Source: Flavobacterium ammoniigenes
GTDB taxonomy: Bacteria > Bacteroidota > Bacteroidia > Flavobacteriales > Flavobacteriaceae
NCBI RefSeq assembly: GCF_020886055.1
Contig: NZ_AP025184.1
Span: 248,001 to 312,000 of the forward strand
DNA length: 64,000 nt
Direction: 5' to 3'
Shown here: in pieces, positions 37,450-60,807 of the stretch
Layout: each line of letters starts with the position of its first letter
Position numbering within the stretch: the first letter of the stretch is position 1
Program-made: the position numbers and the translations under genes
The notes under the pieces: model-generated
What the model was told of the DNA's origin: nothing
What the model saw: only the letters and a program-made list of their open reading frames with translations
Databases searched by the model: none

Positions 37450-38388
37450 CTATTTACTGGATGCCAAATATTCTTTGATGTTGATTCCTTCTGGCAGTCG
37501 ACCTACATTTTGTAGTTTCAAAACAGCTAATTTTTGTGCAATCGTAATCGTTTCTTCAAAATCTTTACCTAACAAACGAGCATATAAAAAACCCGTCCAA
37601 AAAGCATCTCCGGCTCCAGTAGTATCTTTGATGTCGTCTATTTGAGTAGCTTGTTGATGAAACATTCCATGTTCTTTATCTGATAAAACTACGCCATCTT
37701 TCCCTTTGGTTAAACAAATGGTAGACGCACCTAATTCGTGAAAATAGTCAAAAATATAATCCTCAGTTTTAGAGGCTGCGAAGAGACGGTAACAATCGTC
37801 TTCACTCAATTTTACTAACGGATTTGTTGACAAATAATCTCTCAAAACTCGTTTTGCTTCTTCTCTGTCTGGCCAAATACGTTCGGAAAAATTGATATCA
37901 ATACTTGTTTGCAAACCTAATGATTTGGCTTTTTTTGCTCTTTCAACAATCGTCGAACGCGCTGGATTTTTGCTTAATGCAAAACAGGTGGTGTGGAAAA
38001 TCTTGGCGCTTTCTAATAATTCATCTGGAATTTGAGATGGCAAAATTTGATAGTCGGCTTCTCTATACGGAATAAAATCAGGTGTTCCTGTAGATTTAGA
38101 AACAAAAATCACAGAGGTTGGCTCTGTTTCAGATTTTCTAACCTGAGAAGTAATTACATGATTGTCTTTTAACTTTCGTACGATATATTCACCAAGTCCA
38201 TCCTCACCACAAGTAGCTACTATAACTGATTTTAATCCCAAACGTGTCGCATTAACAGCAACATTAGTTGGCGAACCACCTAAAAATCGGTGGTAATCTT
38301 TGGTTCTATTAATAGAAGTATTTACTTCGTGTCCTATAAAATCTATAAGTACCTCTCCGGCACAGATCAAGTCTATTTCTTTTTCCAA
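37450..38388 (-). CDS. PfkB-family sugar kinase (fructokinase-like)
   Basis: About 312 residues from a TTG at 38388, which begins MEKEIDLICAGEVLIDFIG, the conserved PfkB opening. Another TTG at 38454 would add 22 unconserved residues and overlap the transporter gene by 43 bases; no ATG is available. PfkB signature 1 (HRFLGGSPTNVAVNATRLGLKSVIVATCGEDGLGEYI) and signature 2 (DTTGAGDAFWTGFLYARLLG, with the catalytic Asp) are intact. It is cotranscribed with the SLC45-like transporter and sits behind LacI-type operators, so it probably phosphorylates imported fructose. A second PfkB kinase is at 56826-57713. Confidence 0.87.
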   Translation of the reverse strand: MEKEIDLICAGEVLIDFIGHEVNTSINRTKDYHRFLGGSPTNVAVNATRLGLKSVIVATCGEDGLGEYIVRKLKDNHVITSQVRKSETEPTSVIFVSKSTGTPDFIPYREADYQILPSQIPDELLESAKIFHTTCFALSKNPARSTIVERAKKAKSLGLQTSIDINFSERIWPDREEAKRVLRDYLSTNPLVKLSEDDCYRLFAASKTEDYIFDYFHELGASTICLTKGKDGVVLSDKEHGMFHQQATQIDDIKDTTGAGDAFWTGFLYARLLGKDFEETITIAQKLAVLKLQNVGRLPEGINIKEYLASSK

Positions 38389-38411
38389 TGGTAACGAACT
38401 ATTTGTATTAA

Positions 38412-39713
38412 TTATTTTTGAGTACCCTTTTTTGATTGAATTAATAAAGTACAAGCTGCACCAATTAACAGTAATACCCCCGCAAAACTAATGGCTAATC
38501 GGGCATCATTATTCAAGAAATTTTTAAGAATATATCCAAAAGTTAGGTTTTGAAAAATCATTGGAATAACAATCATCATATTGATAATGCCCATGTAAAC
38601 ACCATAACGCTCTTTAGGAATATCATTTACAATAATCAAATAAGGGATTCCCATCATACTTGCCCAACCAATTCCATAACCAATAATAATAGCAAAAAAG
38701 AAATACTCATTGTGTATTGTTGGGAAAATTAAAAAACTAGCACCTGCTAAAATTAAACACGCAAAGTGAACTAATTTCGGACTGTATTTTTTGGCTAATT
38801 TTGCCAAATAAAAGGCAACAGAAAAGGTGATTACAAAACCAAAAGCCCCAATTAAACCATTCCATTCTACTGCATTCTCATAAAGCGATTTGTCTTTTGG
38901 TGTCGCATCCCAAACAGAAAGCGCAATACTTTTGGCGTTGTTTTGCCAATAACACATTAAGGCGTACCATTGAAATAAATACACTAAAAACAATTGCCAC
39001 ATCACTTTGGGCATTTCTAAAACTGCTTTATAAATATCTATAAAAGGAGAAAATATATTTAATGGTTCAGCTTTTAAACGCACTAATTCTTCTGCTGTTG
39101 GCGGAATTTCCGGAGTTTTTTTCATACTCCACCAAATGGAAGTAATGGACAGAACCGATCCCAGAAAAAAGGAGGCATAAATCCAATTGGGTAATGCACC
39201 TGTATAACCCACAAAAACTATTGGAAATAGAAATAGCGAAATATAGGATAAAAATTGTCCAAATCCAGTAAAGAAACTTTGCGCTTGAAAACCTGTAGGT
39301 TGTTGCTCTTCATCTAAAGTATCGGCAACGAAAGCTCTATAGGGTTCCATAGCCGTATTATTACCAACATCCAATAACAATAATAAACCTGCCGCCATCC
39401 AAAGTGAACTACTAAAAGGATATAATAATAAAGCCACACTGCAAATCATTGCTCCGACAAAGAAATACGGTTTACGTCGTCCCCAACGCGGGTGCCACGT
39501 TTTGTCACTCATTGCCCCAATGATGGGCTGAATTAATAATCCTGTTAAAGGTCCTGCCAAGTTCAAAATCGGAATTTGATCAGGATTAGCACCTAAAAAA
39601 TCATAAATAGGATTCACAGCACTTTGTTGTAAACCAAAACTATATTGGATCCCGAAAAATCCAACATTCATATTTATTATTTGCCAAAAATTTAGTTTTA
39701 ATTTCGAACTCAT
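38412..39713 (-). CDS. SLC45/sucrose-type MFS sugar importer
   Basis: A 433-residue, 12-helix MFS protein. The N-terminal GPLTGLLIQPIIGAMSDKTWHPRWGRRKPYFFVGA segment is characteristic of the SLC45/plant SUC and related bacterial sucrose/maltose importers, and it is distinct from the sugar-porter type of the second transporter at 55495. It would carry sucrose or another disaccharide across the inner membrane with protons; the exact sugar is inferred from context. First gene of a two-gene unit with PfkB, preceded by two CGAAAACGTTTTCG-type operators. Confidence 0.85.
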   Translation of the reverse strand: MSSKLKLNFWQIINMNVGFFGIQYSFGLQQSAVNPIYDFLGANPDQIPILNLAGPLTGLLIQPIIGAMSDKTWHPRWGRRKPYFFVGAMICSVALLLYPFSSSLWMAAGLLLLLDVGNNTAMEPYRAFVADTLDEEQQPTGFQAQSFFTGFGQFLSYISLFLFPIVFVGYTGALPNWIYASFFLGSVLSITSIWWSMKKTPEIPPTAEELVRLKAEPLNIFSPFIDIYKAVLEMPKVMWQLFLVYLFQWYALMCYWQNNAKSIALSVWDATPKDKSLYENAVEWNGLIGAFGFVITFSVAFYLAKLAKKYSPKLVHFACLILAGASFLIFPTIHNEYFFFAIIIGYGIGWASMMGIPYLIIVNDIPKERYGVYMGIINMMIVIPMIFQNLTFGYILKNFLNNDARLAISFAGVLLLIGAACTLLIQSKKGTQK

Positions 39714-39780: not shown

Positions 39781-39815
39781 AAAAAACGTTTTCGCAATAG
39801 GCGAAAACGTTTTCG
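39781..39815. promoter_or_regulatory. Tandem LacI-type operators (may also form a terminator hairpin)
   Basis: A perfect palindrome, CGAAAACGTTTTCG (39802-39815), and a variant AAAAAACGTTTTCG (39781-39794) lie 21 bp apart, two helical turns, upstream of the MFS/PfkB promoter. The same motif precedes susC and GH32. Read on the minus strand, the two copies also form a 13-bp stem (39813-39801 with 39795-39783, loop of 5) followed by T, which could terminate the gene ending at 39849. A central CpG flanked by A/T tracts is typical of LacI/PurR operators. Confidence 0.72.
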
Positions 39816-39848: not shown

Positions 39849-40760
39849 CTATTCTTTTGCAAAAGGAATAATGATCTTGGTTTCCCATTCTAATTCATTA
39901 CCTCCATTAAATGGGTTGGCTAGGAAATATTCGACAACTTTTGTATCTAATGTAACATTTTGTTTTTTTGCATAATCTAGCAAAGCGAACCAAGCTCTAT
40001 CCGAAGTTCTGAAATTGCCAAAATAAGTTGCTTTTAAGCCTTTAACTGCAGGGATAGTTTTGAATTTTACATTTGGATTTGCGACAAATTTGGCATCCTT
40101 CGGAATTGGGAAACAATAATTAAATTGAAGTATCTCTTTGTCTTGATCCCAATGTGTAACTTCAACAAATGGCTTTCCAATAATTTTAATTTTATTAGTA
40201 AACAAATAACCCGTTATGATATTATCGTTAGCGATCATGGTTTGTGCTTTTTCTTGCATCACACTAGTAAGGCTTATATAAGCTATGTTTGCTGAAGTTG
40301 ATTCGCCTTCGCCATCAATTCGTACCTTAAATGCTTTTAAATGCTCCTCTAATCCCGCTTTGAAATCTTTAATGCGTGCAATTTGCTTTTCGCGAAAAGG
40401 AGTTGAAATAAAGGGAGCCGTAAGTTTGTTATACCAACTGTGATTCTCGTCTTTAATATCAACTACAATTTTTGTGGTAGAATCATTTACGGAAGAAAGC
40501 GACCAGGTATATACCAAATCTTCATCTCCTTTATGTAATTCTTGTTTGATAAAATCGAAGTTTCTTTTTTCAATTGTGGTGTAACTTTCAGCATTGGATT
40601 TAGATTTTACAACAGACCAATCTTGAATTCCCTGAAAAATTGTTCCTGTAGCTGTTTTGGCTTCAAAACGTATGGTATAATCGGACGGCTTCAATAAAAA
40701 ATACCAAGCAACAAAAGCGATTAGTATGACAACAATTGATCCTTTAATTTTAGTATTCAT
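39849..40760 (-). CDS. Membrane-anchored SRPBCC + GyrI-like effector-binding protein
   Basis: A 303-residue protein with an N-terminal membrane helix (GSIVVILIAFVAWYFLL) and no DNA-binding domain. Residues about 30-150 look like an SRPBCC/START-type domain (YTIRFEAKTATGTIFQGIQDW); about 155-303 resemble the GyrI/AraC effector-binding fold (VMQEKAQTMIANDNIITGYLF; KGLKATYFGNFRTSDRAWFALLDYAKKQN; ELEWETKIIIPF). The domain most likely faces the periplasm and binds a small hydrophobic ligand. It is the last gene after the vanadium-haloperoxidase-like gene, 15 bases downstream, so probably the same transcript. Precise function unknown. Confidence 0.72.
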   Translation of the reverse strand: MNTKIKGSIVVILIAFVAWYFLLKPSDYTIRFEAKTATGTIFQGIQDWSVVKSKSNAESYTTIEKRNFDFIKQELHKGDEDLVYTWSLSSVNDSTTKIVVDIKDENHSWYNKLTAPFISTPFREKQIARIKDFKAGLEEHLKAFKVRIDGEGESTSANIAYISLTSVMQEKAQTMIANDNIITGYLFTNKIKIIGKPFVEVTHWDQDKEILQFNYCFPIPKDAKFVANPNVKFKTIPAVKGLKATYFGNFRTSDRAWFALLDYAKKQNVTLDTKVVEYFLANPFNGGNELEWETKIIIPFAKE

Positions 40761-40775
40761 TGTACTTATTTATTA

Positions 40776-42134
40776 TTATTTTGATTTAAAAAAACTGATT
40801 TCTGAATTAATATAATTCCCCAAATTCGCTCCTTGTACAACCCCATTTTCAATGGCTGCTCGGTAATGAATTCCGCCATACAATCTACTCATTGAAGCTT
40901 CTGAAGCCGCTTGTTTGAATGATTTAAAATTTCTTTTCGGCAAACCAAAAGGAATTTCAGAATCATCTGTATAACTAAAATTATCTCCAAATATTTCTGT
41001 CAAAATTACTGACGAACATGAAGAAACTACTGAATGTCCGCTGGTATATTCAGGAAAAGGAGGCGTTTGCAATTGCGGCTTCCAATCTTCGTCAATATAC
41101 AAGTTGATATAAGTCTCTGGACGAATCACATTCGTTCTGTATTTTTCGTGCCAACAACTAATAAAACTTTCAAAGATACCAATAGAGGTTTTGGTGAATG
41201 CAAAAACGGTAGTTTCAAAATTGGATTTCGTTTTCTTCAATGCAATTTTGGCAATATTAATCCAGTGGGCATCAGGTGTATTTTTCTTTTTTGCAAACAT
41301 CATATGACCCTGAGTAACCGTTGCATAAGGGTTGCAATCCCAAAAAGTGGCAATGGCAGATTCTTCAGGAATTGTAGTAGTCTTAGCGTTTTCAATAGCT
41401 AATAATCCCTCCGATATTTTATTTCCTACTTCATAAGTTTCTTTGGCTTCTTTATAAAACAAAGAGTTCTTATCGGTTGAAAATGGATGTGGCGCTTTAG
41501 GCTTAAATTGTGAGGCCGAATCCATTACTAAAGTTCTGATTTCACCCCAATGTGGTTCTACTCCGTCCATGTAAGCTGGTGGTGTTGGTTGCCATCTTCC
41601 GGCTTGATCGGTATGAACAGAATACTTAGGAAAAGTTCTCGTTTGTTTGTAGTTGTCTTTACCCATCCAAATTTTAATTCTATCGACAACTTTTAATGCA
41701 TATTCTTTAGAAACTTCAAATTCTTTTTTGTTTTCAGAGCCCCACTTCTCGTACAAACTATCTCTGTATTTTTCTAATGCTTCTTCTGAGAAAATCAATT
41801 GTTTACTCACTTCCATATGCGCAATTAAAGCGGCTAATTTTTTATTCACTCCGCTTTTCGCATCCAATACTGGAATGGAATCCAAACCATTTAACTGTCC
41901 CTGAAGACTTTCATACTTAGTACTGTTTTGCGCAATAATCTCATAAGCTGCTATATTGGGATAGACATAAATTCTACTCGCAACTGGTGGAGAGAAAATA
42001 TCATGCACCATGATTCCGGTTACGGTATCAACTGCAGCACAATAATCATCTGTTGTTACAACAATAGGTTGGTCTTTTTTACAAGCGCTAAAAAGAACCA
42101 ATAGCAATCCTAAAAGAGAAATTTTAGTTTTCAT
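40776..42134 (-). CDS. Vanadium-dependent haloperoxidase-like lipoprotein (PAP2 superfamily)
   Basis: A 452-residue lipoprotein (LLLVLFSACKKDQP, Cys near 18). The vanadate/phosphate-site motifs of the PAP2/haloperoxidase fold are visible: KYRTNVIRPETY near residue 335, SGHSVVSS (His367), and RLYGGIHYRAAIENG (Arg417, His423). The residues after the lipid cysteine (KKDQ) resemble the surface-export signal reported for Capnocytophaga lipoproteins, suggesting an outer-surface location. It could oxidise halides with H2O2 or act as a phosphatase; sequence alone does not decide. It follows two FG-GAP lipoproteins by 10 bases. Confidence 0.83.
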   Translation of the reverse strand: MKTKISLLGLLLVLFSACKKDQPIVVTTDDYCAAVDTVTGIMVHDIFSPPVASRIYVYPNIAAYEIIAQNSTKYESLQGQLNGLDSIPVLDAKSGVNKKLAALIAHMEVSKQLIFSEEALEKYRDSLYEKWGSENKKEFEVSKEYALKVVDRIKIWMGKDNYKQTRTFPKYSVHTDQAGRWQPTPPAYMDGVEPHWGEIRTLVMDSASQFKPKAPHPFSTDKNSLFYKEAKETYEVGNKISEGLLAIENAKTTTIPEESAIATFWDCNPYATVTQGHMMFAKKKNTPDAHWINIAKIALKKTKSNFETTVFAFTKTSIGIFESFISCWHEKYRTNVIRPETYINLYIDEDWKPQLQTPPFPEYTSGHSVVSSCSSVILTEIFGDNFSYTDDSEIPFGLPKRNFKSFKQAASEASMSRLYGGIHYRAAIENGVVQGANLGNYINSEISFFKSK

Positions 42135-42144
42135 TTTAAATTAT

Positions 42145-45100
42145 TTAATTTTTATTCATAGGAAATTCGTACACTTCCGCTTTTTTATTATTGATTGTTA
42201 CCAACAGGTATTTTTTTCCGTTCAACAGAATAATATCTAAATGGCGAACCGCTTTTTGAGATAAATCTATTCCCATTTGGTTACCCAAATAGATCGTTTT
42301 ATCATTTTTGATTAATGCTCCTGAAAATCCATCAAAACGACTGTGATATGGGGTCACTCCAAAATAGTTTCCTGCAGCAAAAACTTCCGTTTTCCCATCG
42401 CCGTCAAAATCCGATTGCACAAAACTAGTGATTGGACTTACTTGCATTTTATTAGAAAATGGGACAAAAGTAAATTTCCCTTTATCATTTCTTAAATAAC
42501 CCGATTTTAAATTATGCACTTCAAATAAAGCTGCTTTTTCTAATAATGCCGGATCAAAAATTTCATCCACTTTTTTTCCTGCAAAGGATTTATAGTTATT
42601 GAATTTTTTCTTCAACATGCCGCTAAATTCCTCCACTAATTCGTCCAGTCCCAATGTTGGATAATAGTTGCCATTTTTTTCAATCGCAACAATAGTTTCA
42701 AAAGTTCCATTAGTATCAAAATCATCATAATACATCTTCATTGGAAACTCTTTGGAAGATTTGAATTTTGAATTCATTCCCCAATTCCCAACTACATAAT
42801 CTTGATCTCCATCTTGATCAATATCAAACGCAGCAATAGATTGCCATAATCCGTTATTATTTCCAGGCGATAAGCTCTCGGTAACGTTTTTAAACCTACC
42901 CTTATTATTAGCAAAAAAAGTAGGTTTCATCCATTCGCCTACGACAATTAAGTCTAGAGTTCCGTCTTTATTAAAATCAGTAACAACTGCATCGGTAACC
43001 ATTCCAATACTTGAAAAAGTAGCGGCTTGTACTATTGTAAATACGCCTTTATTGTTGTTCATCAAATAACAATCCGGCATTCTACCAAAACTATTTGATT
43101 TGGAATTGTTACCAATAAAAACATCCAAATCACCATCTTTATCATAATCAATAGTTTTGATAACCGAAGCATTCATCCCCTTTGTTTCAGGTAAATTAGA
43201 TTTAGTTAATGCCATACCTTGGTATAATCTAGGAATCAAATTGGCTGCATATTGTCCGCTTCCAGAAACAACAAACAAATCGTTTTGTCGATCGCTATTG
43301 AAATCAGCAATTACTGCCGAAGCATCCTCATAAATCGAATCGGAAATAATAGAAGCAAAACTTTTCTTCGTAAATCCATTTCCGTTTTGAAGATAAATTG
43401 CCGCTTGTTTTCCTTGTGCTCTACCAAAGAAAATATCACTTTTACTATCATTGTTTAGGTCTCCAATAACTGTGGCAGGACCTCGATCAGAACGTTGATA
43501 AGGAATTAATTTTTGTGCTGTAAAATCAACAAAATCATTTTCTTGATGTATAAAATCAATCCCAAGATTAGTAGCTGACTTTTTAAATATCGGCAATACT
43601 GAAGGATGTAAATTGGCGTAATTAAATATTTTTCTATTGTTATTTGGGCGAACCGTAAGCGTTTGATTGGTTTTCACTTTTTTAAGCGTCTGGTAGGTTT
43701 TATCTGGCCAAATAATTTGAACCGAATCTACCTGTGCAATTTTCCCATAACCAAAATGCGCTATTGGTTCTGAACTGGATTGAAAACCACGGGTCGTTTG
43801 AATATCTTTAAATTGTTTCTGACCTTTAACATACGAAATAACCTTGGCACCAATTCCAAAAGTATTTTTTGCACCAAAACGCAATTTTACTTTTAAATAA
43901 TTGGCTTTAGCATTGGTTTTATTAATATAAATTGAAGCAACACTATTTAAATTATTCGTTACAATATCTAAATCACCGTCATTATCCAAGTCGGCATAGG
44001 CACCTCCATTAGAAATAATAGAATCGTTTTCAATCCAATCTTTAGATCGGTTTTTAAATTGTAAATCTTTGGAACCTTGAAAAACATAATTGGAAACATT
44101 CGCTGAAGGCATCTTTTTCAACGCTTGTTTATCCAACAATTTAGTGGAATTTAATTTGGTTTTAATGCTTGAATTGGAATAGTATTTTATGTAATCCAAA
44201 TCGTTTGGTCGTTTCGGAATTCCATTACACACAAAAATATCTTGTTCCCCATCTTGATCATAATCTGCAAATAAAGCACTCCAACTCCAGTCGGTTGCAG
44301 CCACACCACTTAGTAGCGCCATTTCGGTAAAATGCTTTCCGCCCTGATTGATTTGCAACATATTTCGAGTATACTGATAGTGATAGCCTAACTTTTCTGT
44401 ACGGTATTTCAACATTTGTGGATTATCATCACCGGCAGAAGATTTCAACGTTTTTTCATCTTCAGGAAGCATGTCTAAAGTCATCAAATCGGGAAATCCG
44501 TCGTGATTAATATCGGCGGCGTCGACACCCATTGAGAAACGGCTGGTATGACCAAAATAATTTCTCATACTTTCGGTGAAAGTACCATCTCCGTTATTCA
44601 AATAATAATAATCATCTTCATGAAAATCATTACAAATGTAAATATCTGGATGGCCATCTAGATTAAAATCGGATACCGCAATTCCTAAACCATACCCATT
44701 GGCACCTCCAAAAATTCCGGCTTTTTCACTCACATCTACAAAATGACCATTGTCATTTCGAAATAGTTTATCACCTGTTTCGTAGCTTCTTTTATTTCGA
44801 ATATCGGCTTTACCGTATGACGCTTCTGAGTGAACTGCATGATTCAACAAATACATGTCTAAATCGCCATCATTATCGTAATCCAAAAAGGCTGCCGAAG
44901 TACTATAATTATCCAAGTCCAAACCATATTCGGCAGCACTTTCAGTAAACGTATTGTCTTTGTTGTTAATATACAACTCGTTGTGACCTTCAAATCCATG
45001 AATCCCCACAACAGAACACACATAAATATCCAAATAGCCATCACCATTAACGTCTGCCATGATGGAACCTGTATTCCAATCACTTTCCCCTTCAACAGCT

Positions 45101-45402
45101 GCTTTTTTCGAAATATCTTCAAATTGATTTGCCCCTTTATTCAGGTACAATTTGTTTTTTCCTTGATTAGAAGTAAAATAAATATCTACTAAACCATCAT
45201 TGTTGATATCACCCAATGCCACACCGCCTCCATTGTAATAATAGAGATAATCTAGAATAGAAATATTTTTAGATTCGTCCAATTGATTCTCAAAAGTGAC
45301 CTTACTTTCATCTGGAGAAAGTTTATCAAACAACTGATTTTCTGGATTGGAACAGCCCGCAATAAATAAGGATGCCAGCGCTATTTTAATGAAATTATTC
45401 AT
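42145..45402 (-). CDS. FG-GAP/VCBS repeat lipoprotein with ASPIC/UnbV domain (copy 2)
   Basis: About 1,085 residues from the ATG at 45402, whose ATGAATAA overlaps the stop of the upstream paralogue by 8 bases (coupled translation). The lipoprotein signal is IALASLFIAGCSNPEN. Many calcium-binding FG-GAP/VCBS loops follow (GDINNDGLVDIYF, DVNGDGYLDIYV, DYDNDGDLDMYLL, DLDNDGDLDIVTN) in a beta-propeller. An ASPIC/UnbV segment is near residue 550 (RGFQSSSEPIAHFGYGKIAQVDSVQIIWP), then a second propeller. Such proteins often neighbour SusC/SusD in Bacteroidota; their role is unknown. Paralogous along its length to 45395-48694. Confidence 0.85.
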   Translation of the reverse strand: MNNFIKIALASLFIAGCSNPENQLFDKLSPDESKVTFENQLDESKNISILDYLYYYNGGGVALGDINNDGLVDIYFTSNQGKNKLYLNKGANQFEDISKKAAVEGESDWNTGSIMADVNGDGYLDIYVCSVVGIHGFEGHNELYINNKDNTFTESAAEYGLDLDNYSTSAAFLDYDNDGDLDMYLLNHAVHSEASYGKADIRNKRSYETGDKLFRNDNGHFVDVSEKAGIFGGANGYGLGIAVSDFNLDGHPDIYICNDFHEDDYYYLNNGDGTFTESMRNYFGHTSRFSMGVDAADINHDGFPDLMTLDMLPEDEKTLKSSAGDDNPQMLKYRTEKLGYHYQYTRNMLQINQGGKHFTEMALLSGVAATDWSWSALFADYDQDGEQDIFVCNGIPKRPNDLDYIKYYSNSSIKTKLNSTKLLDKQALKKMPSANVSNYVFQGSKDLQFKNRSKDWIENDSIISNGGAYADLDNDGDLDIVTNNLNSVASIYINKTNAKANYLKVKLRFGAKNTFGIGAKVISYVKGQKQFKDIQTTRGFQSSSEPIAHFGYGKIAQVDSVQIIWPDKTYQTLKKVKTNQTLTVRPNNNRKIFNYANLHPSVLPIFKKSATNLGIDFIHQENDFVDFTAQKLIPYQRSDRGPATVIGDLNNDSKSDIFFGRAQGKQAAIYLQNGNGFTKKSFASIISDSIYEDASAVIADFNSDRQNDLFVVSGSGQYAANLIPRLYQGMALTKSNLPETKGMNASVIKTIDYDKDGDLDVFIGNNSKSNSFGRMPDCYLMNNNKGVFTIVQAATFSSIGMVTDAVVTDFNKDGTLDLIVVGEWMKPTFFANNKGRFKNVTESLSPGNNNGLWQSIAAFDIDQDGDQDYVVGNWGMNSKFKSSKEFPMKMYYDDFDTNGTFETIVAIEKNGNYYPTLGLDELVEEFSGMLKKKFNNYKSFAGKKVDEIFDPALLEKAALFEVHNLKSGYLRNDKGKFTFVPFSNKMQVSPITSFVQSDFDGDGKTEVFAAGNYFGVTPYHSRFDGFSGALIKNDKTIYLGNQMGIDLSQKAVRHLDIILLNGKKYLLVTINNKKAEVYEFPMNKN

Positions 45403-48400
45403 TGATAGAAAATAATTTAGGTGACGCATTATTCAATACCGCAACAAATGAAGCTGGTTTATTTTTTGTCTTGATTGCCCTCATTTTTTGCACTTCTCCA
45501 GTGAGGAATAGTCCTGATTTTTGATACGGTAACAAGCTAAATTTTCCTTTTTTATTTCCTAACAAAACATTGCCGTGACTCGCATCCAAACGCCCAAATT
45601 GAGGTTTGAATTCGTATTGATTTCCACCAAGGATAATGTCTAAATTTCCATCTTTATTGATATCCAAAACACAAGAGGTATTTACAGTTGACAATTGAAC
45701 TTCCTGAGGCAATATTTGGATTTCAAATTGACCCTTCCCTTTGTTGATAGCTATAATACTCTCTTGTAAAACTGCCGTTTTTTGCAACGAATTACTTATC
45801 ACCTCTGGGGCAAAAATTTCTTGAATAGTTTTTTTTGCGTAATCACTATAACTTAAATTTTTCTTTTTAATAGAAGGAATTTGTTTGGCCAATTCTTGTT
45901 TTAAATTAATTGGCATGTCTTTTTCGTCAATCGTGCGTGTTGTAATTTGTTCGATTGTTCCGTTACTATCAAAGTCGTTCACAAACAAACGCATCGGATT
46001 TTTAGCTGTGGCTTTATAGGAAGTATTTGTTCCTTTGTTACCTAAAATTAAATCTTTTTTACCATCATTATTCAAATCAACACATTGCACCGAATTCCAA
46101 AAACCACTATACCCAGACAAATTCGATTTAAATACAGCCAAGCGTTTTCCTGTATTTTTAAATACCTGAGGAGCCATCCAATCACCAACTACAATTAAAT
46201 CTTTCTTTCCATCGTTATCAATATCTTCCCAAACAGCATCCGTAATCATTCCTGTTGCATTTAGTTTGAAAGCCTTTTTGTCAATAACGTTGGTAAAATT
46301 ACCTTTACCATCATTTTCCAATAATAAATGCTTAGGGTCAATTCCATAAACACCAGGAACGCTTCTACTTCCAACAAAAATATCTACATCACCATCCTGA
46401 TCAAAATCGCAAGGAGCCATAACAGCTACATTGGTACTTGCAAAAGGAATAACAGAACTAGATTTTGTAAAAATTCCTTTTCCATTATTTAGATACAAAC
46501 GATTTTTGAAATTTTCGGGACTGGTTCTTTCGTTACCACCAGAACCTACTACTAAATCCAGATCACCATCGCCATCAACGTCTAGAAAACTTGAAGCGGT
46601 GTCTTCAAAATTAGCATCTGCTTCCAAAGCAGTTTGTTTAGTTACACTAAACACATTTCCATTATTGCTATATATTTTTCCTGATTGCCCTTTAGCACCC
46701 CCAACAAAAACATCCTCATTCCCATCGCCATTGATATCGCCAACTGCTAATGAAGGGCCTTCTTGTGAAAGCATTTTAGAGATCAATCCTTCGTAATCAA
46801 AATCAATAAAATCATTTTCTTTGTGTGCTGCCCAATTCGATTTAACTTCTTTTAATAGAGGTTTTGTAATTGTTGTTTTAAATACATAATCGGAGGTAGC
46901 ATTTGCAATAGACAAATTGATAGTTGTGTTTGAAGCTACTTTCTTAATAGTTTGTGTTTTGCCATTAGGCCAAATCACTTGTAAGGAATCAATTTTTTTG
47001 GTTCCAATACCAAAAGTCATTACATAATCAATTGACGATTGAAATCCTCTTGACGGAATTAACTCTTGACGAATAATTTGTTTCCCTGAGTACAATTCAA
47101 CCACACTTCCAACAGCAAACTTATTTTTAAGATCACCTTTCAACTTCACTTTTACATAATGATTGTCTTTATTTTTCTCTGAATTATTGCGGAAAACAAA
47201 CGACTCCATATTCACATTATTGACAACTAAATCCAAATCACCATCGTTGTCTAAATCACCATAAGCCGCTCCATTAGAAAAACTTGGCATATCCAATCCC
47301 CATGTTGAAGCATTATTAGTAAATGTCAAATTACTATTGTTTTTAAAAGCATAATTAGGTATTGGAGTACTTGGCATTTTGGCTATAATAGTTTCAATAT
47401 CCTCTTTTTGTCCAGTAACCACCATTTTTTGCATCAATTCATTAGCAAAAAAGTCCATAAAATCTTGATTCGTCAAATCGTGATAAATCCCATTACAAAC
47501 ATAAATATCTTTGTAACCATCGTTATCCATATCGAAAATTAGTGCTCCCCAACTCCAATCGGTTTTTGAAACACCAGCAAAATTGGCGATTTCTGTAAAA
47601 TGAGTTCCGTCATTGATATGCAATGCATTAGACATGTATTGATTGAAGAAATCCATATTCAACTTACGAGTCAACAAATCGTAGTTTTCAAAACTTGTGG
47701 TTGTTTTTAAACGTTCGTCGCCTTCAGGCAACATATCGGTAGTAAAAATATCTGCTTTTCCATCATTATTGATATCGGCAAGATCGGCGCCCATTGAGGC
47801 TTGACTAATATGCGTTGCCCATGATTGAATTTGCTCAGAAAAAGTTCCGTTTTTATTATTGATATACAAATAGTCTCTTTCATAAAAATCATTAGACACA
47901 TAAATGTCTGGGTACAAATCGCCATTCACATCCCCTACGGTTACTCCAAGTCCAAAACCAATTAAACTACCATAAATTCCAGAAGCTTCGCTAACATCAA
48001 CAAATTTCCCATTATCATTGCGTAACAACTTATCACCACCTCCCTTTAAGATATCGGCCACTTTCCAATCTTTGTCACGTAGTTCTCTTTTATTCGAATA
48101 GTTCAAAGAACTCACCGGAATAAAACTATTATTTAATATATAGCAATCTAAATCACCGTCTTTATCATAATCGAAAAAAGCAGCATGTGTTGTAATTCCT
48201 GTATCTGCCAAATTATATTCTGCCGCTTTATCTGTAAAAGTGCTATTCCCGTTGTTAATATATAGTTGACTTTTTCTAATAGCGTCAATATTATTTCCAG
48301 CATCCAAAACATAAATGTCTAAAAATCCGTCTCCGTTAACATCTACCATAACTACACCTGTAGACCAAGCCTTTTTTCCTTGAACACCAGATTTTAATGA

Positions 48401-48694
48401 GATATCCTCAAATTTAAAATCGCCTTTATTTAGATACAATTTGTTCGCACCTTGATTAGAAATTAAAAAAACATCAGCCAAACCATCGTTATTGATGTCA
48501 CCAATTGCTGCACCTCCGCCATTATAAAAATTGCGGTATTTAAATATGTTCATGTTCTCCCCATTTTTGACTTCATTTTTAAAATCAATTCCCGTTTGAG
48601 AAGGTTCCAAAAGCGTAAAAAGAGTGTCTGAATTTCCTTTAGAACAACTCGTTAAAAAAGATAAAAGGATTAAAAAAAGTAGGCGATACAACAT
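45395..48694 (-). CDS. FG-GAP/VCBS repeat lipoprotein with ASPIC/UnbV domain (copy 1)
   Basis: A 1,099-residue lipoprotein (LLFLILLSFLTSCSKGNS) built like its downstream paralogue: FG-GAP loops (GDINNDGLADVFL, DVNGDGFLDIYVL, DYDKDGDLDCYIL, DMDNDGYKDIYVC), an ASPIC/UnbV region near 520-570 (RGFQSSIDYVMTFGIGTKKIDSLQVIWPNGKTQ) and a second propeller half with more Asp-rich loops. It is predicted to be on the outer membrane, possibly binding glycan or protein through the propellers; this is inference. It lies 196 bases after susD, past a strong terminator, so its expression is probably lower than susCD. Confidence 0.86.
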   Translation of the reverse strand: MLYRLLFLILLSFLTSCSKGNSDTLFTLLEPSQTGIDFKNEVKNGENMNIFKYRNFYNGGGAAIGDINNDGLADVFLISNQGANKLYLNKGDFKFEDISLKSGVQGKKAWSTGVVMVDVNGDGFLDIYVLDAGNNIDAIRKSQLYINNGNSTFTDKAAEYNLADTGITTHAAFFDYDKDGDLDCYILNNSFIPVSSLNYSNKRELRDKDWKVADILKGGGDKLLRNDNGKFVDVSEASGIYGSLIGFGLGVTVGDVNGDLYPDIYVSNDFYERDYLYINNKNGTFSEQIQSWATHISQASMGADLADINNDGKADIFTTDMLPEGDERLKTTTSFENYDLLTRKLNMDFFNQYMSNALHINDGTHFTEIANFAGVSKTDWSWGALIFDMDNDGYKDIYVCNGIYHDLTNQDFMDFFANELMQKMVVTGQKEDIETIIAKMPSTPIPNYAFKNNSNLTFTNNASTWGLDMPSFSNGAAYGDLDNDGDLDLVVNNVNMESFVFRNNSEKNKDNHYVKVKLKGDLKNKFAVGSVVELYSGKQIIRQELIPSRGFQSSIDYVMTFGIGTKKIDSLQVIWPNGKTQTIKKVASNTTINLSIANATSDYVFKTTITKPLLKEVKSNWAAHKENDFIDFDYEGLISKMLSQEGPSLAVGDINGDGNEDVFVGGAKGQSGKIYSNNGNVFSVTKQTALEADANFEDTASSFLDVDGDGDLDLVVGSGGNERTSPENFKNRLYLNNGKGIFTKSSSVIPFASTNVAVMAPCDFDQDGDVDIFVGSRSVPGVYGIDPKHLLLENDGKGNFTNVIDKKAFKLNATGMITDAVWEDIDNDGKKDLIVVGDWMAPQVFKNTGKRLAVFKSNLSGYSGFWNSVQCVDLNNDGKKDLILGNKGTNTSYKATAKNPMRLFVNDFDSNGTIEQITTRTIDEKDMPINLKQELAKQIPSIKKKNLSYSDYAKKTIQEIFAPEVISNSLQKTAVLQESIIAINKGKGQFEIQILPQEVQLSTVNTSCVLDINKDGNLDIILGGNQYEFKPQFGRLDASHGNVLLGNKKGKFSLLPYQKSGLFLTGEVQKMRAIKTKNKPASFVAVLNNASPKLFSINE

Positions 48695-48813
48695 AATAAA
48701 TTGCAGGTTAATTGTAAAAGAATATAAGGCAGCAATTTATGGAAAAAGTAGAATATAAAAAAATTAAAAACAGCTTAATATTATTGTGTTTACAGGAGAT
48801 TATAAACAAAAAA

Positions 48814-48864
48814 AAGAGCCTTTAAAGGCTCTTAAAAAAATAAGGAGGACAACGTCCTCCTTAT
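48814..48864 (-). terminator. Two hairpins after susD; strong intrinsic terminator
   Basis: On the minus strand, the first hairpin (48864-48840, 11-bp arms ATAAGGAGGAC/GTCCTCCTTAT, loop of 3) is 27 bases past the susD stop. The second, AAGAGCCTTTAAAGGCTCTT (48833-48814), is followed by seven or more T. It separates susCD from the FG-GAP genes. Confidence 0.88.
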
Positions 48865-48890: not shown

Positions 48891-50441
48891 TTAGTATCCA
48901 GGATTTTGAGATAAATTAGAGTTAAATAATGCATCCGCAGGAATTGGATACAATAAATATTTAGCATCTGAAGTGTATGGTTTTAAAGCTCTTGCTCCAA
49001 GGAATTTTCCAAAACGAATTTGATCGTTTCTTCTCCATCCTTCCCACCATAATTCTCTACCTCTTTCAGCATAGATTCCATCTAAAGTAGCAGCAGCAGC
49101 AGTAACACCAGCTCTTGCAGCTAAGTTAGATAAAATTGTAGCAGATCCAGAACCTGAACCACCTCTAGCGATAGCTTCTGCTTTCATTAATAAAGCATCA
49201 GACAAACGCATTAAGATCAAGTCATTATCAGGACTACCTAAGTTAGCAGCATCTGGTACATATTTAATACCACGTACACCAGCAGTCTCAAGTGTAGCAC
49301 CTGAAGTGATCAATGTTACATTTCTAGTGAAGTTCAATGGATTGTTGTTTCTGTCTTTTAATGCATTTGCAGAACTTACAACACCATTTTTATACACTTG
49401 CCCTTCTAAATAACCTGCACCATTACCATTAGCATCTACTGTATAAGTATATCCAGGAACAGCATAGTGAGCACGTTTATCAGACGCAGTAAAAGTACTG
49501 TAATAATCAGCTACAGTAGCAAATCCATTCCATCCGTCTGGAGTTTGGTTGTAGTGGTTACACATTCTCCATTTAGACTGCATACCTCCACCTGCTCCAC
49601 CTTGAATATTCTTAGAAGAGAAGATGATTTCGTTAGATGTATTGTTGTTTGGTTGGAAGTTGCTCCAGTATCCAGATCCAACAGTTGTATCTAAAGTATT
49701 AGTTAAAGCATCTACATATTGTACTACTTTAGTCATATCTGCAGCATCAAATGTATAAGGTCCAGCAGGATTTGTAGCTTTAAACACACCTTTATTTAAG
49801 TATGTTTTTGCTAACAAGAAACGAGCTGCATCTTTATTTGCAATACTTGCATCATTAGCTGTTCTGTTTGGTAAAGCGTTTAAAACAGCTTCCAATTCAG
49901 CAATGATGAAATCTGTAGCTTCAGCACGAGACCAAACTTTAGGATCGTCTGTCAAAGCTGAACCTGCTGGTCTGTATGGCGCTTGACCAAACAAATCCAC
50001 TACATTATAGTAGTACCAAGCACGTAAAAAACGAGCCTCAGCTACCTGAGAAGCAGTACCACCATTTTCAATTACCAAGTTACATTTGTAAGCATTTGAT
50101 AATAATGAATTCCATGCATTTCTTACCTCACCGTGATCAGGAGCCCAAGTTTGTGTATGGATTTGTCTCCAAACTCCATTATCATCCCAGTCACCTCCAC
50201 GAGTAGGTCCTACCATAGCGTCAGTAGACATTTCGTTCAAAGCGTAAACACCACCTTGACCATTAAAATCTCTTAACCCTTCATAAGCTGAAACTAATGT
50301 TGCAGCAGTATTAATAGCACTACCACCAGAAGTTTCATTGGAAACACCATCTAAGATTTTTTCATCTAAGTTAGTACATCCGATGCTAAAAGAAACTACA
50401 CCTAAGTATAATAATCCTTTAATTATATTATTTCTTTTCAT
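48891..50441 (-). CDS. SusD/RagB-family outer-membrane glycan-binding lipoprotein
   Basis: A 516-residue surface lipoprotein (LLYLGVVSFSIGCTNLDEKILDG, Cys near 22) of the SusD family. It has TPR-like helices, the ARFLRAWYYYNVVDLFGQAPYRP region and the C-terminal GRELWWEGWRRNDQIRFGKF and LYPIPADALFNSNLSQNPGY that are near-universal in SusD proteins. It forms the lid of the SusC transporter encoded 11 bases upstream and binds the incoming oligosaccharide, here probably a fructan or sucrose-related sugar. It ends in a strong terminator. Confidence 0.94.
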   Translation of the reverse strand: MKRNNIIKGLLYLGVVSFSIGCTNLDEKILDGVSNETSGGSAINTAATLVSAYEGLRDFNGQGGVYALNEMSTDAMVGPTRGGDWDDNGVWRQIHTQTWAPDHGEVRNAWNSLLSNAYKCNLVIENGGTASQVAEARFLRAWYYYNVVDLFGQAPYRPAGSALTDDPKVWSRAEATDFIIAELEAVLNALPNRTANDASIANKDAARFLLAKTYLNKGVFKATNPAGPYTFDAADMTKVVQYVDALTNTLDTTVGSGYWSNFQPNNNTSNEIIFSSKNIQGGAGGGMQSKWRMCNHYNQTPDGWNGFATVADYYSTFTASDKRAHYAVPGYTYTVDANGNGAGYLEGQVYKNGVVSSANALKDRNNNPLNFTRNVTLITSGATLETAGVRGIKYVPDAANLGSPDNDLILMRLSDALLMKAEAIARGGSGSGSATILSNLAARAGVTAAAATLDGIYAERGRELWWEGWRRNDQIRFGKFLGARALKPYTSDAKYLLYPIPADALFNSNLSQNPGY

Positions 50442-50452
50442 TGATATTAGTA

Positions 50453-53428
50453 TTAAAAAGTTACATTAAGACCTAAAGCAAATGCTTTTGAACGTGGGTA
50501 TGATAAATAATCGATACCAGCAGATGGCACACCGTTAAGTGATTTATCTGTGTTCACCTCAGGATCAAAACCAGAATAGTTAGTAAATAACAATAAGTTT
50601 TGTCCATTTACAAAGAAACGTGCTGATTTAATTTTCAATTTCTCTAATGAAGCTCCTGTGAAAGTATAACCTAATGTTAAGTTACCCATTCTTAAGAAAT
50701 CTCCTTTTTCTAAGAATTTAGTAGAAGGTGAGTTTGGATCTCCTTGAGATTGTGTAGATGTAGCAACACTTGCTGGAACGTTTCTTCCTCCAAGGTAAGC
50801 ACCTTTAAAGAAATACGCATTAGCAGTATTGTTATACAAATAGTGACCAAATGCTCCGTAGAAAGATACAGCAGCATCAAAGTTTTTGTAAGTTACATTA
50901 GTAGAGAAACCTAAGTTCATTTTTGGTAAACCAGTTTTTCCAACTAATTTTTTAGCAGCTAAACCTAAAGTAGCATCTGCTCCTGCAGCATCTGCATAGA
51001 TAGATGATCCTGTAGAATCATAACCTCTCCACTCATACATATAGTAGCTGTAGATTGGTTCGTTGTTAGTAACCACTTGAGCATAAGCTCCAGATAAACC
51101 TTGTCCGTGTAAAGCTCCAGCTTGGATAAATCCAGCAAAGTTTTCCATTTTGTTAGACAAGAATGAAGCATTAGCAGCGATATCCCAAGTCAATTTTTCA
51201 GAATCAATGATTTTGTAATTAGCACTTACCTCAAAACCTTTGTTAATTAAGTTTCCTGGTAAATTCACAAAACGTGGAGATGGTGGTCCTGGTTGAGTAG
51301 CAGCAGAAGGTACTGGGAAAATTAAATTTTCAGTATCTCTTTGGAAGTAATCAACTGTACCTGTTAATCTGTTGTTGAATAATGCGAAATCAACACCTGC
51401 TCCTGATGAAGTAGTAGTTTCCCATTTCAAATCAGCGTTAGCATTTGTATCTACGTTTAATGAACCGTTGTTTCCATAAGAAGCACGAGCAACAGCTGAA
51501 TTTACAGCAAACTCTTGGTTACCAGTAATACCGTAGTTAGCTCTTACTTTTAAGCTATTCACTAAACCAGCTTTGTCTTCAAAAACTTTGTATCCTAAAC
51601 CTACAGAAGGGAAAGAACCGTTTTTGTTATTAGCTCCTAATTTAGTAGAACCGTCCACACGAAGTGTAGCAGTAACTAATAATTTTTTGTATAAAGTAGC
51701 ATTTACTCTACCAAAATAAGATTGTAACTCCACTTGATTTTTGAAAGATGAAGAACGGAATTCGTTTTGTAAACCACCTTCAATATTATCAATTAAGTTC
51801 TTTTGTTTTGGATCAAAACCTTTTGCAGAAGCATCGCTACCACTAGCATTGTATTGGTAGTAAGAGTAACCAGCTAAAGCATCAAAGATAAAGTTCTCAT
51901 TGAACGTTTTGTTGTAGTTCAAAGTGTGTTCAAATGTTTTGTTGAATTTTTCAATTCCAGAGATACCAGCTTGTCCGAATTTTGGAGTAGATGATCCTGG
52001 AGGAGTAGCTTGAGCTACGTTTTGAATATCAATTGTTGGATCCAATTGGTACTTTCTAGTAGAAGTAGAAGTTTCAACACCAAACAACATTTGGTAATTT
52101 AAATTCTCATTGATTTTCAATGTAGATTTAATACTAGCTAATAATTTGTTAGTGTTAGCATAGTCAGTGTAAGCATTTGCTAATTGAACTGGGTTAATGT
52201 AAGTATTACTAACTACATTATAAGTACCATTAGCATTGTACAATTTATTAGTTGGGTTCCAGTATAAAGCTGTTCCAATTAAGTTACCAATGTAACCAGC
52301 ACTATTTGAAATCAATGCAGATTGATCTCTCAAACTTGAGTAGTTTACTTTAGTATCAACTTTCAAAGCACCACCGAAGAAATCGTTAGAGTTGTTGAAA
52401 GCAAAAGTATACTTGTCTAAACCTGTGTTTTTAACAACACCTTCAGTGTTAGATGCACCAATAGACAAACGAGTTGAAGAGTTGTCAGTTGATTTTGTAA
52501 AAGCAACATCATGGTTTGTAGAGAATGCATCTCTTAAGATAGCATCTTCCCAGTTGTAACCAGTACCACCGTTGTTAGCACCACCATTAGCAACAAATTG
52601 TGCTGAATTCATTAATTTCAAGTTACTAGCTAAAGTACTGAAAGTAAATGAGTTTGAATACGTTAATTGTGCTTCTTTTGATTTTGATTTTTTAGTAGTA
52701 ATAACTACAACACCATTTGCTCCACGAGAACCATAAATAGCAGTAGATGACGCATCTTTCAAGATAGTCATACTTTCGATATCATTTTGGTTGATAAAGT
52801 TTAATGGGTTTCTTGCAGAAGAACCTCCTAAACCAATATCACTACCACCCGCAGACACATCTCCACCATCCAAAGGCACACCATCAACTACGATAAGCGG
52901 TCCGTTTCCTGAACGAATAGATGAATTACCACGAATTCTAATACTTGCTCCAGCTCCTGGCTCACCACTTTGAGAAGTTACTTGAACTCCTGAAACTTTA
53001 CCTCTCAACAAATCTGCTGGAGATGGTGCACCTACGTTGTCAAAGCTTTTAGAGCTTAATTGATCAACTGCTCCGGTAGCATCTTTTTTCTTCACAGAAC
53101 CGTAACCGATAACGACTACTTCTTTTAATTCTGCTGAATCTTCTTTTAAAGTAACATTTACATTACTTCTTCCTGCTACATTTACTTCTTGTGATTTAAG
53201 ACCAATGTAACTAAAAACTAAAACTGCATTTGAGCCAGCATTCTTGATAGTAAATTTACCATCAAAATCTGTTTGTGCTCCTTTTGTCGTTCCTTTAACT
53301 AATACAGAAGCCCCTGGAAGAGGTCCGCTAGCATCGGATACGGTACCTGACACATCTTGCGAGTATGTCAAACTTGTACATAGCATGGTTAGAAAAACCA
53401 TCAAGCCTTTAAGTAGACTATTTTTCAT
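50453..53428 (-). CDS. SusC/RagA-family TonB-dependent transporter
   Basis: A 991-residue outer-membrane transporter: signal peptide to about residue 23, a carboxypeptidase-D-like domain (about 25-100: VSGTVSDASGPLPGASVLVKG), TonB-box/plug region (LKEVVVIGYGSVKKKDATGAV; LLRGKVSGVQV; IRIRGNSSI) and a barrel ending KAFALGLNVTF. With SusD it imports oligosaccharides too large for porins using TonB energy. It is preceded by a -7 box and two LacI-type operators. GH32 and GH13 enzymes on the other side of the control region suggest fructan/sucrose substrates. Confidence 0.94.
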   Translation of the reverse strand: MKNSLLKGLMVFLTMLCTSLTYSQDVSGTVSDASGPLPGASVLVKGTTKGAQTDFDGKFTIKNAGSNAVLVFSYIGLKSQEVNVAGRSNVNVTLKEDSAELKEVVVIGYGSVKKKDATGAVDQLSSKSFDNVGAPSPADLLRGKVSGVQVTSQSGEPGAGASIRIRGNSSIRSGNGPLIVVDGVPLDGGDVSAGGSDIGLGGSSARNPLNFINQNDIESMTILKDASSTAIYGSRGANGVVVITTKKSKSKEAQLTYSNSFTFSTLASNLKLMNSAQFVANGGANNGGTGYNWEDAILRDAFSTNHDVAFTKSTDNSSTRLSIGASNTEGVVKNTGLDKYTFAFNNSNDFFGGALKVDTKVNYSSLRDQSALISNSAGYIGNLIGTALYWNPTNKLYNANGTYNVVSNTYINPVQLANAYTDYANTNKLLASIKSTLKINENLNYQMLFGVETSTSTRKYQLDPTIDIQNVAQATPPGSSTPKFGQAGISGIEKFNKTFEHTLNYNKTFNENFIFDALAGYSYYQYNASGSDASAKGFDPKQKNLIDNIEGGLQNEFRSSSFKNQVELQSYFGRVNATLYKKLLVTATLRVDGSTKLGANNKNGSFPSVGLGYKVFEDKAGLVNSLKVRANYGITGNQEFAVNSAVARASYGNNGSLNVDTNANADLKWETTTSSGAGVDFALFNNRLTGTVDYFQRDTENLIFPVPSAATQPGPPSPRFVNLPGNLINKGFEVSANYKIIDSEKLTWDIAANASFLSNKMENFAGFIQAGALHGQGLSGAYAQVVTNNEPIYSYYMYEWRGYDSTGSSIYADAAGADATLGLAAKKLVGKTGLPKMNLGFSTNVTYKNFDAAVSFYGAFGHYLYNNTANAYFFKGAYLGGRNVPASVATSTQSQGDPNSPSTKFLEKGDFLRMGNLTLGYTFTGASLEKLKIKSARFFVNGQNLLLFTNYSGFDPEVNTDKSLNGVPSAGIDYLSYPRSKAFALGLNVTF

Positions 53429-53519: not shown

Positions 53520-53553
53520 CTATATCGTTTTCGGGGCATCGAAAACGTTTTCG
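53520..53553. promoter_or_regulatory. LacI-type operators upstream of susC
   Basis: A perfect 18-base palindrome, ATCGAAAACGTTTTCGAT (53538-53555; core 53540-53553), is accompanied by a weaker copy CTATATCGTTTTCG (53520-53533, 11 of 14 core bases) 20 bp nearer the promoter. The core edge is 56 bp from the -7 box, placing both sites upstream of -33, where an activator would bind. The probable binder is the LacI-family protein at 59785-60807. Confidence 0.75.
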
Positions 53554-59758: not shown

Positions 59759-59766
59759 TATATTTG
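59759..59766 (+). promoter_or_regulatory. Candidate -7 element for the LacI-family gene
   Basis: TATATTTG is an exact -7 consensus match, 18 bases before the ATG at 59785. No CGAAAACGTTTTCG motif is seen in this gap, so autoregulation through that site is not supported. Confidence 0.4.
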
Positions 59767-59784
59767 TTGCCAAATCAAAAGTCA

Positions 59785-60807
59785 ATGAAAAACATTACTC
59801 TTAAAGAAATTGCAACTACCCTAGGAATTTCGATAACGACCGTTTCAAAGGCGTTAAAAGATTATTCTGATGTTAGTGAAAAAACTAAAAAAGCAGTCAA
59901 GGAATTGGCTGAGAATTTGAATTATACACCTAATAGTTTTGCCGTCAATTTAAGAACAAAAGAGTCCAAAACTATTGGTTTAATTATTCCTGAGGTTACT
60001 CACCACTTTTTTTCAAATATCATTAAATCAATAATTGATGCCGCTGAAAAAAATGGCTATTTAGTGATCATATTACAATCCAATGAAAGCCTAGAGTTAG
60101 AAAAAAAACAAGTCGATTTATTGATAAATAAAAGGGTTGATGGTATTTTAATTTCCTTGTCTAATGAATCCAATAACGATTCGCATATTCAAGACATATT
60201 GAATAGGAAAATTCCACTAGTTATGTTTGATAAAATTGCCAAACTTGCTAAATGTTCTAAAGTAGTCATTGACGATCAAAAAGCGGGATTTGATGCCACA
60301 CAACACTTGATTGACAATGGTTGTAAAAAAATAGCCCATATTCGCGGTCCCCTTAATCCACAAAATTCAATAGATCGTTATTTAGGCTACAAAAAAGCAT
60401 TAGAGTCCAACGGAATTCCATTTGATTCGAAATTAGTATACACCTGTGAAAAAGTAAACTTTGAAGAAGGACTGGAATTTACCAAACAATTATTTGAAGA
60501 ACATCCAGATGTAGATGGGATTTTTGCAATAACTGACTTAGTAGCCGTTGGAGCATTAGCATATTGTAACGACCAAAAAATAAATGTCCCAAAGGATGTT
60601 AAAGTAATTGGTTTTAGCAACTGGTTCATGTCTCAAGTAATTACACCCAAATTAAGTACGGTAGAACAACCGAGTCACGAAATGGGTATTACGGCTTTTA
60701 ACTTATTATTAGAAGAAATGGTAGCACGAAAAGAAGAATCAGAATACATTCCAAAAACCATAGAATTAGAAACTCAAATTATTGAAAGAGAGTCAAGTAG
60801 AAACTAA
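59785..60807 (+). CDS. LacI-family transcriptional regulator of the fructan locus
   Basis: About 340 residues from the ATG at 59785 (MKNITLKEIATTLGISITTVSKALKDY); an upstream in-frame TTG start adds residues not seen in the family. The helix-turn-helix is at 5-25, hinge helix near 46-58 (NSFAVNLRTKESKTIG, with the Leu that inserts at the operator centre), and periplasmic-binding-protein-like core at 60-340. It probably binds the CGAAAACGTTTTCG sites upstream of susC, GH32 and the MFS/PfkB unit; their position upstream of the -7 boxes suggests activation. The effector would be a sugar or sugar phosphate. It lies between the GH13 terminator and queG. Confidence 0.92.
   Translation: MKNITLKEIATTLGISITTVSKALKDYSDVSEKTKKAVKELAENLNYTPNSFAVNLRTKESKTIGLIIPEVTHHFFSNIIKSIIDAAEKNGYLVIILQSNESLELEKKQVDLLINKRVDGILISLSNESNNDSHIQDILNRKIPLVMFDKIAKLAKCSKVVIDDQKAGFDATQHLIDNGCKKIAHIRGPLNPQNSIDRYLGYKKALESNGIPFDSKLVYTCEKVNFEEGLEFTKQLFEEHPDVDGIFAITDLVAVGALAYCNDQKINVPKDVKVIGFSNWFMSQVITPKLSTVEQPSHEMGITAFNLLLEEMVARKEESEYIPKTIELETQIIERESSRN

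Follow-up and report, generated by a model that had tools for sequence, protein, structure and literature searches.

A conserved cassette of FG-GAP/ASPIC lipoproteins, a putative vanadium haloperoxidase and a START-GyrI protein beside susCD in Flavobacterium ammoniigenes

The DNA analysed here, referred to as the window, is a stretch of 64,000 nucleotides from Flavobacterium ammoniigenes (contig NZ_AP025184.1, positions 248,001 to 312,000 of the forward strand), and all coordinates below count from its first letter. Downstream of an adjacent susC and susD pair, the arrangement that marks a SusCD polysaccharide utilization locus, its minus strand carries four tightly packed genes encoding two large FG-GAP/ASPIC lipoproteins (FG1 and FG2), a putative vanadium-dependent haloperoxidase (VHPO) and a membrane-anchored protein with START and GyrI-like domains (START-GyrI, gene GyrI). 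Comparison with related genomes reveals that many Flavobacteriaceae conserve the four genes as a cassette.

The four genes and their proteins

45395..48694, minus strand: FG1, FG-GAP/ASPIC lipoprotein, 1099 aa (PF13517, PF07593)
42145..45402, minus strand: FG2, FG-GAP/ASPIC lipoprotein, 1085 aa (Pfam; CRTAC1-like propeller plus ASPIC at 21-588, second propeller at 601-1085)
40776..42134, minus strand: VHPO, putative vanadium haloperoxidase (PAP2) lipoprotein, 452 aa (PDB 4cit/4usz, E 7e-180)
39849..40760, minus strand: membrane-anchored START (25-144) plus GyrI-like (145-302) protein (PDB sequence match, AlphaFold2 model)

A first-pass annotation, made by a model from the letters and their open reading frames (ORFs), had described four minus-strand ORFs at 39849-48694 that overlap or lie 10-15 bp apart, encoding three lipoproteins and one membrane-anchored protein, and this description stands. 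FG1 and FG2 share the overlap ATGAATAA at 45395-45402 (an alternative upstream ATG of FG2 at 45429 is also permitted by ORF calling), and gaps of 10 bp and 15 bp separate FG2 from VHPO and VHPO from GyrI. A lipobox cysteine can be read by eye in the translations of FG1, FG2 and VHPO; the fourth product lacks a lipobox and carries a membrane helix. The vanadate site and the propellers had likewise been assigned correctly: Pfam finds FG-GAP_3, FG-GAP and UnbV_ASPIC domains in both FG1 and FG2, which places them in the CRTAC1/ASPIC family as defined by an FG-GAP propeller with a UnbV_ASPIC domain, and a PAP2 domain in VHPO (PF01569, 34.6 bits, cut-off 27.2).

The closest solved structure of VHPO is the Zobellia protein 4cit/4usz, named a vanadium-dependent haloperoxidase. 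Residues K331, R338, S365, G366, H367, R417 and H423, which we take from the K, R, S-G-H, R, H pattern to be the vanadate ligands, are all present in VHPO and invariant in 201 VHPO sequences, except G366, which is kept in 200. Position 329, presumably equivalent to Asp322 of the Zobellia enzyme (on a chain numbering minus 8, which is self-consistent), lies two residues before the vanadate lysine; it is Asp in 185 of the 201 sequences, Asn, Ala or Glu in 11, and His in the window and in L032, L033, L228 and L230. Residues near Asp322 bear on halide specificity, and Asp322 itself is not known as a defining feature. The enzyme of Zobellia galactanivorans (4cit, 4usz; Fournier et al. 2014) is a vanadium iodoperoxidase and is reported to be strictly specific for iodide. 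Since this Asp is replaced by His here, and by Glu or Asn in some Flavobacterium, iodide specificity may not hold for the present protein. The orthologue of Z. uliginosa (L117, located at the same position as L048) differs little from 4cit in the alignment and sits in the order FG-FG-FG2-VHPO-GyrI, so that the crystallised type of enzyme is found within the cassette in a sister of the source species. An iodoperoxidase of Z. galactanivorans, vIPO3, is reported to increase on Ascophyllum. By analogy with the Zobellia homologue, from which halide oxidation is inferred, we regard VHPO as a putative vanadium-dependent haloperoxidase of the bacterial iodoperoxidase clade.

No Pfam match, GyrI-like (PF06445) included, was found in the product of 39849-40760; its Z. 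uliginosa orthologue matches Pfam GyrI-like at 40 bits (cut-off 26), and the protein itself matches PDB entries 7zhd/7zhe at E 4e-6. An AlphaFold2 model (pLDDT 93) places a START/Bet v 1-like and a GyrI-like domain behind one N-terminal helix, and the fold of the latter resembles rhodamine- and closthioamide-binding proteins. This likeness to binders of aromatic drugs and dyes means that the idea of a phenolic compound, raised by the first-pass annotation, may have merit.

Conservation in Flavobacteriaceae and beyond

In 187 of 299 genomes of the family VHPO finds a match with an E value of 1e-3 or better, a count that takes in weak PAP2 relatives. Neighbourhoods were read in two sets. The first comprises 120 loci, from 123 taken among the Flavobacteriaceae VHPO matches listed, the last 3 being left out; it omits partial genes, some matches on short contigs, and the weaker matches. 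The second comprises the best 80 of 588 VHPO loci, and its species overlap with those of the first. Counts over 200 loci or 201 sequences pool both sets, with some genes counted twice.

The earlier proposal of a joint function was to fall if the four genes were rarely found together; they are found together often. An FG gene lies directly upstream of VHPO on the same strand in 92/120 loci, two or more FG genes stand in a row in 80/120, and GyrI follows directly in 67/120, each of these having two or more FG genes. The corresponding figures in the 80-locus set are 70 for FG and 63 for GyrI. Over the 200 loci, with the first possible codon taken as ORF start, junctions of 50 bp or less were counted for FG-FG2 (153/159), FG-VHPO (152/162) and VHPO-GyrI (123/130). 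SusD occurs somewhere in the region at 79 of the 120 loci; among the 92 with FG before VHPO it immediately precedes the FG run in 50, lies further upstream in 23 and is not seen upstream in 17, two regions ending within the FG run.

The linkage is reciprocal. In 50 genomes hand-picked from the 299 and biased to VHPO carriers, 26 GyrI relatives score 138 bits or more (the next 56 bits), and 25 of them lie within 150 bp of VHPO, the exception, G172, adjoining FG2. There are 27 relatives of FG2 with at least 50% identity, and all but that of G172 adjoin VHPO; one of the next three (918-968 bits) adjoins VHPO. Distant FG relatives are numerous in these genomes, with up to 27 matches in one.

A tree of 206 VHPO sequences gathers all 121 GyrI-linked ones within one clade of 162 (support 0.88). 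On it the GyrI-linkage label changes 16 times (55 or more in 200 shuffles) and the FG-adjacency label 24 times (34 or more). Across 58 loci, L033-L045 excluded, the distance matrices of the core proteins FG1, FG2, VHPO and GyrI show correlations of r 0.67-0.76, and SusD correlates with this core at 0.27-0.60; part of these values comes from shared species history. Chance neighbourhood was rejected in view of the recurring order, strand and spacing and of the reciprocal linkage of FG2 and GyrI to VHPO.

Outside the family, 30 loci were sampled (20 of them over no more than 1.5 kb to either side; 19 of the loci were submitted to the tree), and VHPO at E 1e-30 or better is present in 51 of 247 genomes of the phylum. 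FG stands directly upstream of VHPO in 14/30, and SusC-SusD-FG-VHPO is contiguous in L262 and L263. GyrI was found in 0/30, within those spans. Other upstream partners of VHPO there include GH65 phosphorylases (L249, L251, L252), a GH116-like enzyme (L260) and housekeeping genes; none of the three GH65 loci has an FG gene directly upstream of VHPO, and in L249 and L252 VHPO sits between the phosphorylase and a sugar symporter.

Variants also occur within the family. An ORF of 180-215 aa lies between FG genes in 21/120 loci, never with GyrI in the region, and in 6 loci of the 80-locus set, one of them with GyrI. Examples of about 190-205 aa (L128:7354-7923, L063:2619-3239, L076:2893-3465, L086:2877-3449) all four show a lipobox-like cysteine by eye, and the one example scanned gave no Pfam or NCBIfam match. 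Beside the cassette of marine genera recur a 284 aa protein with a weak SdiA-regulated match (L056:11332-12180) and, on the other strand, a protein of 1236-1250 aa with an Omp85-like C-terminus (L056:12225-15932), whose Zobellia copy has a metallophosphatase domain.

Regulatory signals and the sugar locus

Around the cassette the window carries the following genes and signals.

50453..53428, minus strand: SusC-type TonB-dependent transporter (TIGR04056, 667 bits)
48891..50441, minus strand: SusD-type surface lipoprotein (PF07980, PF14322)
48842..48862, minus strand: first of two T-run hairpins downstream of susD, a terminator or attenuator (read from the sequence and folded)
48814..48833, minus strand: second hairpin with T-run, terminator-like (sequence)
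48732..48739, minus strand: candidate -7 element TAAATTGC for a promoter of the cassette (TAAATT recurrence)
39781..39815, no strand assigned: pair of LacI-type operators between cassette and symporter gene (exact site plus second copy)
53540..53553, no strand assigned: LacI-type operator before susC (exact palindrome)
38412..39713, minus strand: sucrose-type (GPH-like) MFS symporter (PF07690; TIGR01301 at 81.6 bits, below cut-off)
37450..38454, minus strand: PfkB-family sugar kinase, start uncertain (PF00294)
53875..55449, plus strand: GH32 enzyme (PF00251)
59764..60807, plus strand: LacI-family regulator (PF00356, PF00532)

The four genes had been described as one run downstream of susCD, and their tight packing is borne out, with the qualification that they do not form a single simple run with susCD: a strong hairpin with a T-run lies between susD and FG1, and a simple susCD operon including the four genes has to be qualified. 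Such a hairpin follows susD in 12/12 Flavobacterium relatives and in 43/59 other SusD-FG gaps, against 0/71 mononucleotide-shuffled gaps; many of the relatives that bear it have gaps of only 52-110 bp, and for this reason we read it in general as an attenuator. TAAATT, which follows the Bacteroidota promoter consensus for the -7 element, precedes FG1 in 13 of 15 aligned Flavobacterium gaps, the window included, and marks a candidate promoter of the cassette's own.

GH32, GH13 and LacI genes lie beside susCD, and LacI-type sites stand at susC and at the symporter gene. Exact palindromes occur at 39802 and 53540, with weaker ones close by, and an exact operator with a second copy recurs between GyrI and the symporter gene in 10/12 Flavobacterium relatives. 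When as many as 3 mismatches are allowed, the window holds no more LacI-type patterns than chance would give (6 found, shuffle mean 4.1, 22 of 100 shuffles reaching 6), and the case for operators therefore relies on the exact palindromes and on how they are conserved. Given the hairpin after susD, TAAATT before FG1 and the lack of a LacI-type operator between the two genes, expression of the cassette can depart from that of susCD, possibly by attenuation or from its own promoter.

The first-pass view that fructan use does not explain the set finds no support, as it was put, in the neighbourhoods. Among 199 Flavobacterium genomes, VHPO (E 1e-80 or better) occurs in 27 and the symporter (E 1e-150 or better) in 48; the two lie 1041-1253 bp apart in 24 of the 27, and in the remaining 3 the symporter is on another contig or was not found. 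The symporter is present without VHPO in 22 of the 48 genomes, and four of these, taken as a sample, all show a LacI gene, a TonB-dependent receptor confirmed by Pfam and the symporter in succession (the receptor of L276 is spread over two ORFs). In those four, therefore, a lone receptor lies at the position that the block from SusC to GyrI takes elsewhere.

Beyond Flavobacterium the flanks vary, with xylose isomerase and a xylulokinase-like gene among the neighbours. In a survey of same-strand downstream ORFs of 150-760 aa, for which 55 of 88 listed were chosen by hand and scanned, GH97 occurs in 11/55 and a GH100-like enzyme in 6/55. Sugar markers (including GH97, GH100-like, trehalase and xylose genes) accompany 44 of the 92 FG-VHPO loci of the 120-locus set and 24 of the 70 of the 80-locus set.

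Farther off in the window lie the ordinary genes for the type IX secretion translocon SprA/Sov (TIGR04189, 26776-33960) and RuvA (33961-34542), and at 36965-37390 an ORF of 141 aa that weakly matches models of sugar-phosphate isomerase and IMP dehydrogenase, as CBS-domain proteins do; an ORF of similar size in L034 has CBS domains.

Proposed working, alternatives and known systems

Our preferred interpretation, held tentatively and at somewhat less than even confidence, is a putative conserved outer-envelope uptake module with its own peroxide-driven halide oxidiser. It is suggested by the conserved order, the reciprocal linkage, the proximity of SusD, the co-variation of distances, the homology to 4cit/4usz with the ligands kept, the position of the block where four sampled Flavobacterium genomes without VHPO have a lone receptor, the nearby sugar genes and the likeness of the GyrI-like fold. 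SusC and SusD would import a sugar or a sugar conjugate, while FG1 and FG2, as calcium-binding double propellers on the surface, would hold or present the substrate. With hydrogen peroxide the lipoprotein VHPO would oxidise a halide, which is iodide for the Zobellia relative, and the hypohalous species would modify the substrate or a protecting group near the cell. The START-GyrI protein of the inner membrane could bind, in the periplasm, a product or by-product that is aromatic or hydrophobic in some other way. In F. ammoniigenes the module would serve a LacI-controlled sucrose/fructan locus, replacing a simple TonB-dependent receptor.

Several observations weigh against this interpretation. 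The equivalent of Asp322 is His329 in the window and Glu or Asn in some Flavobacterium, and the vanadate ligand set is the same in PAP2 phosphatases. FG is missing directly upstream of VHPO in 28/120 loci of the family and 16/30 outside it; the hairpin separates susD from FG1, with no LacI-type operator between them in the window; and the fetched flanks of 48/92 and 46/70 FG-VHPO loci (120- and 80-locus sets) hold no sugar marker. Surface exposure was also sought through the export motif of lipoproteins, and was not shown by it: K/S/Q with two acidic residues, or three acidic residues, are found in a minority, 26/154 VHPO, 31/169 FG1 and 24/138 FG2.

The same genes could instead form mainly a halide or iodine system, a possibility that we consider doubtful, in which VHPO would remove peroxide and make hypoiodous acid (HOI) or I2, SusCD and the FG proteins would capture oxidised or organically bound iodine, and the neighbouring sugar genes would supply energy or peroxide or be incidental. 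The Zobellia homologue is reportedly an iodoperoxidase, and FG1 and FG2 carry 12 and 11 strict D.[DN].DG motifs. Iodine uptake by Arenibacter C-21 needs glucose, oxygen and calcium, and a haloperoxidase has been proposed for it (PMC5064120). Two other Arenibacter (L057, L108) carry FG1-FG2-VHPO-GyrI. However, the halide-site Asp is replaced in the window, no peroxide-producing oxidase was found among 25 of the 32 neighbour families listed from the 55 downstream ORFs, and the nearest named relative, F. ammonificans, lives in freshwater, where iodide is scarce.

It is rather unlikely that the cellular activity of VHPO is that of an acid phosphatase of the PAP2 type, which would dephosphorylate a sugar or lipid-linked substrate before uptake; the Pfam assignment, the ligand set common to such phosphatases and the sugar-gene context agree with it, but the closest solved relative is named a haloperoxidase and is reportedly strictly iodide-specific. 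Least probable, and in our view quite improbable, are separate tasks at a shared place, with SusCD-FG serving uptake in general and VHPO-GyrI being an unconnected pair for stress or resistance that travels with it, since FG2 and GyrI orthologues occur almost only in the cassette, one per genome among the hand-picked genomes, and FG1 and VHPO distances correlate at 0.76, even though FG relatives abound elsewhere and SusD co-varies less with the core.

The uptake module with a halide oxidiser also has a bolder form, which we think rather unlikely: a new Sus-type surface complex with a working VHPO, coupling halide oxidation to capture and TonB-dependent uptake, with the same cassette underlying peroxide-dependent iodine uptake in marine Flavobacteriaceae. 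To our knowledge, bacterial vanadium iodoperoxidases have known structures and no settled physiological role. The cassette supplies VHPO with four to six likely partner genes, kept with it in many Flavobacteriaceae, and allows a genetic test of the role of these enzymes and of the genes behind Arenibacter-type peroxide-dependent iodine uptake. CRTAC1-like FG-GAP/ASPIC lipoproteins, numerous in many of the searched genomes, gain a likely place in surface uptake complexes.

The components are of known kinds. For their combination, open-licence papers were searched by term, a body of literature that lacks most subscription journals; this brought up no account of the cassette, no paper joining ASPIC, UnbV and SusD or haloperoxidase, SusD and FG-GAP, and none with two of the terms vanadium-dependent haloperoxidase, VCBS and SusD. 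Two papers that did match have passages on other matters, and PMC5613140, PMC7440613, PMC11036162 and PMC11345257 gave no hit. Among known systems, the Z. galactanivorans iodoperoxidase is alike in its near full-length alignment at E 7e-180, its vanadate ligands and its lipobox-like N-terminus; it differs in having Asp322 where the putative haloperoxidase has His. SusC/SusD polysaccharide utilization loci share the SusC-SusD pair, the lipoproteins, the LacI regulator and the nearby glycoside hydrolases, whereas here FG-GAP/ASPIC double propellers and a haloperoxidase occupy the places downstream of SusD. Unlike other members of the CRTAC1/ASPIC-UnbV family, the FG proteins are lipoproteins with a second C-terminal propeller, and unlike the GyrI-like binders CTR107, CtaZ and SbmC, the START-GyrI protein is modelled with a membrane helix and a START domain in front and no DNA-binding domain. 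Arenibacter C-21, which has at least five PAP2 homologues of 4usz, resembles the present case in its proposed haloperoxidase and its need for calcium and glucose, and differs in that candidate PAP2 genes and no cassette are named for it (PMC5064120), the link to the cassette being one that we infer.

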